From Pseudomonas profundi (GTDB lineage: Bacteria > Pseudomonadota > Gammaproteobacteria > Pseudomonadales > Pseudomonadaceae): a stretch of DNA of 64,000 nucleotides. Below, in pieces: positions 41,389 to 44,596 of this stretch. The notes below the pieces were generated by a model that had not been told where the DNA came from, searched no databases, and worked only from the letters and a program-made list of their open reading frames with translations. Both the position numbers and the translations under genes were made by a program. Position 1 is the stretch's first letter. Each line of letters opens with the position of its first letter. The stretch lies in the NCBI RefSeq assembly GCF_008638305.1, contig NZ_VTPZ01000001.1, forward strand, positions 186,001 through 250,000, written 5' to 3'.

Positions 41389-41939
41389 CCAGACCCGCCT
41401 CTCCCCTGCATGCTCTGCTGTTCCTGCTGCTGTTCAGCGTGACATCGCTGGCCAGCGCGCAGGATTACATCGTCGAAGTCGTGTTATTTACTCAGCCTGG
41501 CAGCGGCATCGTCGAGGGCCCCGGACCCGAGCTGGACTGGAAATCGGACGCCGCAGAACTGGACAGCACCACCCGCAGCAATGTGCGCCCTATCGACGAG
41601 TCCCGCCATCGCCTGGCCAACGAGGCGCGAAAACTGTCCGCCCAGGGCTCCAGGATTCTGTTTCACAAAGCCTGGACCCAGCCAGCCGGCACGCCTGTAG
41701 CGGTGACCAAGGGCGACGACCTGACCGGCTTCGATCTTTATCCGGTACAGGGCGTCGTCAGCCTGAGCCGCGCTAACACTCTGGAGGCCGACGTCGCTTT
41801 CTGGGTCAACCACGAAACAAGTTCGACGGACAGTCAACCGGTCAGCGAACGCCTGCAACAGAGCCGCCGCCTGCGCCCTGACGAGGTTCATTACCTGGAT
41901 CACCAAAGCCTGGGGATGCTGATTATCGTTAGCCGCTAG
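41385..41939 (+). CDS. CsiV family periplasmic protein
   Basis: A 184-residue protein with a Sec signal peptide (about 1-25, cut after ASA). The mature part begins YIVEVVLFTQ and contains DLYPVQGVVSLSRANTLEADVAFW and the terminal blocks RLRPDEVHYLDHQSLGMLIIV, which match the peptidoglycan-associated CsiV family described in Vibrio as an activator of cell-wall stress signalling for PBP1A. Assignment of the same role here is inference. It is translationally coupled to mfd. Confidence 0.85.
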   Translation: MTRPASPLHALLFLLLFSVTSLASAQDYIVEVVLFTQPGSGIVEGPGPELDWKSDAAELDSTTRSNVRPIDESRHRLANEARKLSAQGSRILFHKAWTQPAGTPVAVTKGDDLTGFDLYPVQGVVSLSRANTLEADVAFWVNHETSSTDSQPVSERLQQSRRLRPDEVHYLDHQSLGMLIIVSR

Positions 41940-42109
41940 GCCCGATCTGAAGTTGCTAACCAGCAAGCAATGGGCATGTTGCGGTAAGTCTGATTAGACT
42001 CAGCATGACCCAAACATCAAACTACCTGACAGCACAGCCTGGTTCCCCCCTCTGCAAAGGGGGGTTAGGGGGGATTGCCCGCGGCCCCTCACCGATTCAT
42101 TCCGAAGTC
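41940..42109. other. Gene-free stretch with C/G-run hairpin
   Basis: After csiV comes a hairpin made of a six-C run (42045-42050) and a six-G run (42059-42064), then TTAGGGGGG. It lacks a T tract, so it is a weak terminator candidate at best; the strong G runs could form other structures. No gene is present; the repeat copies follow directly. Confidence 0.6.
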
Positions 42110-42412
42110 AATCGCCCGCCAGCTACCAGGATTTCGCAAGACGCCGTAAACCCATCCTTGGGGGCTTGGTGAAAACATCCCTGTTTTCAACACTTGCTCT
42201 ACCCTGACAGCTGGCGGGCTTGATCTCGCGTCGGTGTGAGGCAGAGTTCAAAACCCTTTTCTGGGTTTCTGCCCAGCGACTCAAATCTTCACGGCAGAGC
42301 GAGGCGACAGGGTTGCGATGACCGTTCGATGACAGGGATGTCATCACCGAGCTTACAGGGACGTACTTGCAGCGTGTCAGCGCAGCCCTGCCGGCTCGCG
42401 GAGCCCAACTCC
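42110..42412 (+). repeat. Palindromic repeat element, copy 1
   Basis: Block A (42110-42222) is bounded by the 11-bp inverted pair GCCCGCCAGCT (42114-42124) and AGCTGGCGGGC (42209-42219). It holds two small hairpins with a TCCY loop: CCCA-TCCT-TGGG (42151-42162) and GAAAACA-TCCC-TGTTTTC (42171-42188). After about 65 diverged bases, block C (42287-42412) holds the same hairpin type in reverse orientation: GATGACA-GGGA-TGTCATC (42328-42345) and a weaker TACAGGGACGTA (42354-42365). No reading frame is convincing. A near copy starts 383 bp further on. Confidence 0.85.
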
Positions 42413-42492
42413 ACTTAGCCACTCGACAGTGACTTCCACGTCACCCTGGTTCGTTTACGAACTCTTGAAAGCTGCGCTGATAGGCAGGGTCC

Positions 42493-42795
42493 AATCGCCC
42501 GCCAGCTACCAGGATTTCGCAAGACGCCGTAAACCCATCCTTGGGGCTTGGTGAAAACATCCCTGTTTTTCAACACTTGCTCTACCCTGACAGCTGGCGG
42601 GCTTGTTCAGGCATTGGTGCGGCTGAGAGTTTGAAAACACTTAGACTGGCCATCTGGCAACGCGAATCTCCACGGCGGAGCGAGACGACAGGGCTGCGAT
42701 GACCGTTCGATGACAGGGATGTCATCGCCGAGCTTACAAGAACGTACTTGCAGCGCGTCAGCGCAGCCCTGTCGGCTCGCGGAAGCTAACTCCGA
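42493..42795 (+). repeat. Palindromic repeat element, copy 2
   Basis: Direct repeat of the preceding element. Block A (42493-42605) has the same length of 113 bp and differs by one lost G in the first hairpin region and one gained T in the second; its hairpins are at 42534-42545 and 42553-42571. The middle 60-65 bases differ strongly. Block C (42668-42793) keeps the GATGACA-GGGA-TGTCATC hairpin (42709-42726) and ends in a perfect 12-bp inverted pair GACAGGGCTGCG (42687-42698) and CGCAGCCCTGTC (42762-42773), imperfect in copy 1. The fourth hairpin has lost its GGGA loop. Confidence 0.85.

Positions 42796-42851: not shown

Positions 42852-44596
<1,745 letters not shown>

Follow-up and report, generated by a model that had tools for sequence, protein, structure and literature searches.

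Bacterial intergenic DNA is full of short palindromic repeats, many of which lack an explanation. The 64-kb stretch of DNA that we analysed (the window, below) contains one set of such repeats between 2 convergent genes, and the question raised by this locus is what kind of element the repeats represent and in which form, DNA or RNA, their hairpins have been maintained.

Organization of the array

A preliminary description of this DNA, made from the letters alone, had reported 2 tandem copies of a repeat with block structure. Repeat comparison bore this out, returning one direct-repeat family of 145 nt (at 42109 and 42492; 83% identity, spacing 383) and another of 137 nt (at 42276 and 42657; 89% identity, spacing 381), and it also agreed with the description that the block ends are inverted repeats. 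The hairpins listed there, CCCA-TCCT-TGGG (42151-42162), GAAAACA-TCCC-TGTTTTC (42171-42188) and GATGACA-GGGA-TGTCATC (42328-42345), are present as written. Its proposal that the second block carries the same hairpin type in reverse was correct and can be extended: block 2 is block 1 inverted, and the window holds 4 copies of one ~109-nt element in the order - + - +, that is, 2 tandem divergent pairs (<- ->), with the supposed diverged middle of each copy being simply a spacer. A search of the 64-kb window with R1, a covariance model made from other organisms without window sequences, gave 4 matches at E up to 1, all in the array (E 7e-18 to 4e-13). The features are as follows.

42109-42793, no single strand: array of 2 tandem units, each a divergent pair (<- ->), from repeat comparison, R1 matches and locus scans
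42113-42221, minus strand: element copy 1 (block 1, unit 1), outer stem and 2 hairpins, with GGA loops on the minus strand; R1 match 42126-42207 (-), 75.0 bits, E 7.4e-18
42151-42162, minus strand: hairpin 2 of copy 1, CCCA-AGGA-TGGG (minus strand), from sequence, R1 alignment and fold
42171-42188, minus strand: hairpin 1 of copy 1, GAAAACA-GGGA-TGTTTTC (minus strand), from sequence, R1 alignment and fold
42295-42403, plus strand: element copy 2 (block 2, unit 1), with GGA loops on the plus strand; R1 match 42308-42390 (+), 68.1 bits, E 5.4e-16
42328-42345, plus strand: hairpin 1 of copy 2, GATGACA-GGGA-TGTCATC, from sequence, R1 alignment and fold
42354-42365, plus strand: modelled form of hairpin 2 in copy 2, TACAGGGACGTA, from R1 alignment
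42496-42604, minus strand: element copy 3 (block 1, unit 2); R1 match 42509-42590 (-), 57.7 bits, E 3.5e-13
42676-42784, plus strand: element copy 4 (block 2, unit 2); R1 match 42689-42771 (+), 64.5 bits, E 5e-15

When block 1 is taken from the minus strand, both blocks show one order of parts: the outer stem first, then hairpin 1, followed by AGC, hairpin 2, a CRGCG tail and the outer stem again. The tandem units probably arose by later duplication of an inverted pair. One of the flanking convergent genes ends at 41939 (+) and is, to judge by its sequence, csiV-like; the other, at 42852-43637 (-), presumably encodes an MTAP-like nucleoside phosphorylase. Among the 27 genus genomes with this locus that were scanned, only G000, G016 and G021 carry elements at it. 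A second repeat, GGTTCCCCCC..AAAGGGGGGTTAGGGGGGATT, adjoins the array (window positions 42041-42077) and also flanks several other arrays of the genome.

Predicted fold of the element

Seven window strands were folded as RNA, and gave z-scores of -4.4 to -7.9, well outside what chance would produce, with good folds from both strands. For copy 1 (z -6.1), both modelled hairpins are in the lowest-energy fold. The lowest-energy fold of copy 2 (z -5.3) joins CAGG to CUUG in place of the modelled hairpin 2, that of copy 3 (z -6.4) has another hairpin 2, and for copy 4 (z -6.0) the opposite strand is the more stable (-63.0 vs -59.1 kcal/mol). Hairpin 2 as modelled is thus in the lowest-energy fold of 1 of the 4 window copies. 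In 4 larger copy sets it was present in the lowest-energy folds of 20/44, 28/80, 42/113 and 26/48 copies, and hairpin 1 in those of 35/44, 66/80, 102/113 and 32/48. In the same sets, the strand carrying the GGA loops, folded as RNA, was more stable than its complement for 40/44, 73/80, 102/113 and 44/48 copies.

As modelled, the element is a three-way junction in which an outer stem of ~27 bp and nearly free sequence closes 2 hairpins. Watson-Crick pairing of the outer stem holds to ~27-28 bp and then drops, abruptly in the genus set but by degrees across the class, which sets the length of the element at ~109 nt; past the outer stem the flanks show weak conservation, confined to the genus sets. 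The class-wide alignment also contains an 11-bp stem of varied sequence. We are virtually certain of this assignment of family and structure.

Covariation and selection on one strand

The preliminary description had argued for selection on hairpin structure and had suggested that a covariance model be built. Such a model (R1) was made, and the stems do covary across homologues. In a class-wide alignment of 45 sequences, the frequency of paired cells (90.2% vs 60.4% shuffled), the number of double-change cells (445 vs 138) and the covariation score (0.743 vs 0.183) were each reached in 0 of 500 shuffles; the 45 sequences were those of 52 fixed-geometry matches in which 9 or more of the 15 outer pairs formed, a choice that favours the outer-stem percentage and in which hairpin 1 played no part. 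All four Watson-Crick pair types occur at most outer-stem positions, and when pairing partners were slid by 1 to 3 columns, at most 43% were paired.

Perfect stems of free sequence are also what template switching during replication produces, and palindromes perfected in this manner would need no selection. That mechanism predicts neither a kept loop nor more G·U than A·C, and we regard it as a very improbable source of the repeats. On the GGA strand, over the first 20 bp, we counted 103 G·U vs 31 A·C cells class-wide (47 vs 7 elements) and 207 vs 39 in the genus set (88 vs 9 elements), where 2 positions account for 91 of the 207, so that shared descent inflates the count; in three complete genomes the figures were 31 vs 5. 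The excess was equal in antisense copies of tandem gaps (21 vs 6 and 62 vs 5). Taken together with the stabler fold of the GGA strand, the G·U excess argues that one strand is under constraint to fold while single-stranded, regardless of its neighbours, a conclusion that we hold with high confidence. Single-stranded DNA tolerates G·T as well. The folded strand can now be named as the GGA strand, and of the 2 forms between which the preliminary description had not chosen, it is probably RNA rather than single-stranded DNA that is selected.

Comparison of orthologous copies extended these observations to elements resident at one site. We observed 7 pairing-keeping double changes in 5 of 7 orthologous element pairs (G000 vs G016 or G021), compared with 1.2 in a simple simulation, and 18 pairs lost in one of the 2 genomes, compared with 28.6 simulated; the 7 element pairs were hand-picked from loci with matching flanks. 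At L084 and L020 copy number was unequal and the copy compared was our choice, and L274b, L268a, L268b, L266b, L267a, L267b and L020b were omitted. Such compensatory changes point to constraint on resident copies, unless gene conversion caused them. In the aggregate, covariation, loop retention, the G·U excess and in-place compensation strongly support selection on the hairpins. We regard as established the family and how widely it occurs, the retention of a fold on one strand, and compensatory evolution that goes on in place.

Copy number, spread and genomic context

A search of the genome and its relatives had been proposed at the outset, along with the suggestion that broadly similar palindromes occur in marine gammaproteobacteria. 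Within its own genome, an 801-bp query returned 37 BLAST matches, and R1 at least 60 matches at E 0.001 (79 candidates scored). R1 was positive in 28 of 37 genomes of the genus (own genome included; nine without), in 5 of 21 from the rest of the order, in 53 of 274 sampled genomes of the class and in 19 of 249 of a phylum sample, all 19 of them of the same class. A 28-nt core pattern, AGCNYNCANGGAYGNRYTYRCRGCGTNT, for which our own arithmetic gives a chance expectation of ~1 match in 257 Gb, was found in at least 119 stretches of named genomes; the taxa among the matches listed included Xanthomonas, Stenotrophomonas, Marinobacter, Microbulbifer, Shewanella, Rheinheimera, Halopseudomonas and others. 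We take 78 of the 80 titles among the matches listed to be a gammaproteobacterial taxon or 'Gammaproteobacteria bacterium', the other two reading 'Proteobacteria bacterium'. From these named matches, Gammaproteobacteria was taken to be the class of the window as well. The suggestion held: by both pattern and R1 searches, related palindromes are widespread in marine and other gammaproteobacteria.

The arrays of the own genome contain one to three units, mostly with alternating blocks; a few loci have 2 like blocks consecutively or a single block. At 24 own-genome loci compared with 2 close relatives, flank-to-flank distance differed between species (754 vs ~391 and 757 vs ~1245 bases, for example), which indicates that arrays differ by units. 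Adjacent copies are mostly inverted, with divergent, convergent and direct pairs numbering 16, 4 and 7 in one set, 49, 23 and 5 in a second, and 26, 11 and 7 in a third. Near some arrays (flanks of L088 and L090) there are other palindromes, whose foot is GTAG-like (GTAGCGCGCCTGCGCTACGCC), making BIME-like mosaics.

Of 205 copies with 2 neighbours, 73 lie in convergent gaps, 121 in tandem gaps and 11 in divergent gaps, a type that makes up 67 of all 312 gaps; this count used our own ORF caller, omitted 23 ORF-overlapping copies and counted arrays several times. For singles in three complete genomes, 60 of 65 were placed: 19 convergent, 15 sense, 13 antisense, 9 divergent and 4 within ORFs, so that convergent gaps hold 19 of 56 singles vs 32 of 166 of all gaps, and divergent gaps 9 of 56 vs 45 of 166. 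There was no clear bias toward sense orientation to the preceding gene (67 sense and 54 antisense in the tandem gaps; 22 and 16 for singles; 15 and 13 in the complete genomes). Copies thus favour gene ends, without a clear sense bias. An inverted pair would place one GGA-strand copy in transcripts arriving from either side, which may explain both the inverted pairing and the absent sense bias.

The rarity of copies in divergent gaps and the frequency of singles in convergent ones would fit a bidirectional 3'-end element whose hairpin terminates or shields transcripts, as REP/BIME sequences do between convergent genes. Yet avoidance of promoters is expected equally of a harmless insertion, and a strand-neutral protector leaves both the kept loop and the one-sided G·U excess unexplained. 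Moreover, a run of five T's within ~15 nt of the stem is almost absent (GGA strand plus other strand: 1+1 of 102, 0+1 of 140 and 0+0 of 59), and we rejected the intrinsic terminator on this count. A 3'-end element of this kind appears improbable to us.

Probable mobility and its candidate agents

Copies probably spread by some mobile mechanism. At one locus, a filled and an empty site could be compared and showed a clean gain or loss, with a possible duplication of ~8 bp. Flanking direct repeats in general did not exceed the shuffled level (1 of 102 vs 1.5 shuffled; 2 of 59 vs 0.8 shuffled), and there was no class-wide signal of target duplication.

The preliminary description had pointed to a RAYT/IS200-like transposase as a candidate agent. 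This was not supported: none of 14 RAYT loci in G000, G016 and G021 (covering 15 of 16 RAYT matches) carries the element, copies occur in G004, G015 and G023 although these lack a RAYT match, and in 7 genus genomes RAYT is present and the element absent. RAYT presence does not track element presence, and mobilization by RAYT/IS200 was rejected. Two of the RAYT loci (L091, 2097-3502; L072, 2419-3335) bear different palindromes of their own (GGCCGGGATGGAACCCGGCC), and those at the RAYT locus of G021 sit within 218-bp tandem repeats.

A second candidate was a resident reverse transcriptase, with the element as a SINE-like retroposon whose folded RNA is copied. Selection of one strand as folded would suit such a history, as would the behaviour of YPAL, a Yersinia repeat to which we return below; according to PMC2229807, YPAL has moved recently and its target duplications, which vary in length from 3 to 26 bp, lie at or beside dyad symmetry. 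RVT_1 genes, however, do not track the element, there being no RVT_1 match in six element-bearing single-contig genomes (G001, G012, G021, G026, G028 and G029), and the flank duplications of our element do not exceed chance. A resident reverse transcriptase was not supported as the agent, and we judge a retroposon origin to be extremely doubtful.

Matches to plasmids and phages were absent for the window array, as were matches of a Xanthomonas copy to plasmids and of the published core of RU-2, which is YPAL, to phages. The RU-2 core was present in 17 plasmid records and in 5 of 5426 E. coli genomes, in 4 of them on plasmids; plasmids can thus carry a relative of the element. In E. coli, a conjugative IncN plasmid carries a YPAL-like unannotated stretch (NZ_CP058883.1, 37573-37644; L340), and matches of equal range and identity were seen on Klebsiella and Citrobacter plasmids.

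The properties of the element might be accounted for as mobile DNA only, a REPIN/MITE-like miniature element whose strand-specific single-stranded DNA hairpins are read by a recombinase, with the loop as the mark of that recombinase and its fit to CsrA a coincidence. The patchy, high-copy presence, the mostly inverted adjacent copies, the filled and empty site and the lack of clear orientation bias to genes all agree with this reading, as does an excess of the GGA strand on the lagging strand (84 vs 54; singles 44 vs 21; G021, G028 and G029), an exploratory result from one of several tests, with the terminus assumed to lie opposite dnaA. It is weakened by the RAYT loci and flanking repeats described above, and by compensatory changes that go on in place after insertion, for which gene conversion between copies is an alternative source. 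We consider mobility without an RNA function rather unlikely.

Loop sequence and the CsrA/RsmA question

The preliminary description had also emphasized that a single loop is kept on different stems. Among 84 distinct pattern matches, the best tetraloop of hairpin 1 was TGGA in 50, GGGA in 17 and AGGA in 6, a total of 73; since the search pattern did not cover hairpin 1, this count is a fair test of the loop. The claim stands to that extent, with exceptions: hairpin 2 of copy 4 (42735-42746) has the loop AGAA, in which GGA is lost, the sole such case among the window's 8 loops. Among distinct R1 matches, hairpin 1 has the form CANGGANG in 78 of 104 from the class, 123 of 137 from the genus set and 40 of 55 from the complete genomes, sets that are biased for the loop since the model already contains it; their hairpin 1 stems numbered 80, 43 and 22 distinct forms, respectively, and CA or GGA is missing from some of their loops.

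RsmA/RsmE sites are likewise written CANGGANG. The CsrA SELEX consensus is RUACARGGAUGU with GGA inside a hairpin loop, as summarized in a review (PMC4347634). Both loops of the element are of the CANGGANG type and, by their sequence, would fit a CsrA/RsmA site: their GGA sits within a hairpin loop that CA/UG or similar pairs close, with hairpin 2 often outside the lowest-energy fold. Binding of CsrA/RsmA by the element RNA is, in our estimate, a possibility somewhat short of even; we had put it at an even chance and lowered it because hairpin 2 is so often outside that fold.

CsrA matches were found in 49 of 53 element-bearing class genomes. As CsrA is present in 235 of the 274 sampled class genomes overall, this co-presence says little. 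The four element-bearing genomes without a CsrA match are 67, 75, 88 and 98% complete, G253 being the 98% complete one; a strict requirement of the element for CsrA is not evident. In the literature searched, no paper joined the words YPAL and CsrA.

If CsrA/RsmA does bind, the GGA strand would be transcribed, the 2 GGA loops, whose starts are ~23 nt apart, might bind one CsrA/RsmA dimer, and the copies could serve as dispersed CsrA ligands, either as decoys or as RNA protected by CsrA. An extension of this scheme, in which dispersed, once-mobile copies act as a distributed CsrA/RsmA sponge, a selfish element having spread class-wide via its host's global RNA regulator and now shifting the free concentration of that regulator, is speculative and on balance unlikely. 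The overall reading toward which we lean slightly is that of a class-wide, probably once-mobile structured element of the YPAL/RU-2 kind whose RNA would bind CsrA/RsmA. The CsrA component is the most useful hypothesis for the element and is directly testable: it makes the old question of repeat function open to binding and CLIP tests, and the loop match would matter if binding is true.

Comparison with known repeats and RNAs

The CsrB/RsmZ-type sRNAs, like the element, have GGA hairpin loops fitting the CsrA consensus; the element differs in having 2 sites per unit and dozens of dispersed copies, and no CsrB/RsmZ-type family was listed among its Rfam matches. Nor was TwoAYGGAY RNA, an Rfam family, among the Rfam matches listed. 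Ysr224 (RF02770) aligned end-to-end with one copy at 31.2 bits, vs a gathering score of 70 bits; its consensus resembles the C-rich strand of the element, and it is entered as a Yersinia sRNA on the opposite strand. The other Rfam matches were sub-threshold and mostly to microRNA families. ERIC (127-bp consensus, TA ends) appears to share GAGCTTACA with the element.

REP/REPIN/BIME sequences have inverted pairs, tandem arrays and a location at gene 3' ends in common with the element, according to the available part of PMC3733652. Their unit is 20-40 bp with one hairpin, however, and that of the element ~109 nt with 2. The GTAG tag is absent from the hairpin foot of the element, where the junction in the class-wide alignment reads GACCGT or variants. 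CGTC REPs are described in the same portion of that source as having 8-9 bp stems beginning with AT, unlike the 11-bp stem of varied sequence found here.

The closest relative is YPAL. A text search for the core words led to one paper, Delihas 2007 (PMC2759123), in the available text of which the words are located in RU-2, that is, YPAL of Yersinia. The published RU-2 matches the full 28-nt core pattern and is predicted to fold into an outer stem with 2 hairpins, whose AGGA and TGGA loops are placed as in the element; RU-2, which was compared by pattern and fold, differs in an extra 3-bp hairpin between the 2 NGGA hairpins. YPAL, like the element, is dispersed, intergenic and present in many copies, and is abundant in most Yersinia, with up to 144 copies, and present in 3 copies in E. 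coli (excerpt of PMC2847712). It is also said to be 'co-translated', in the authors' word, with upstream genes (PMC2229807, in the part available). As excerpted, the literature gives YPAL/RU-2 as a repeat of Yersinia and Erwinia of 167-168 bp, vs ~109 nt for the element, which we call a variant of YPAL on account of this length difference. The finding is larger than first described, being a class-wide variant of the YPAL kind, one family that spans a class, with a conserved fold on one strand and candidate sites for a known global regulator. Its core is class-wide, its outer stem nearly free in sequence and its copies arranged in divergent pairs and tandem arrays, by all of which it differs from YPAL; and the core pattern and covariance model now allow Yersinia YPAL, Rfam Ysr224 and unnamed repeats from many further genera to be compared.
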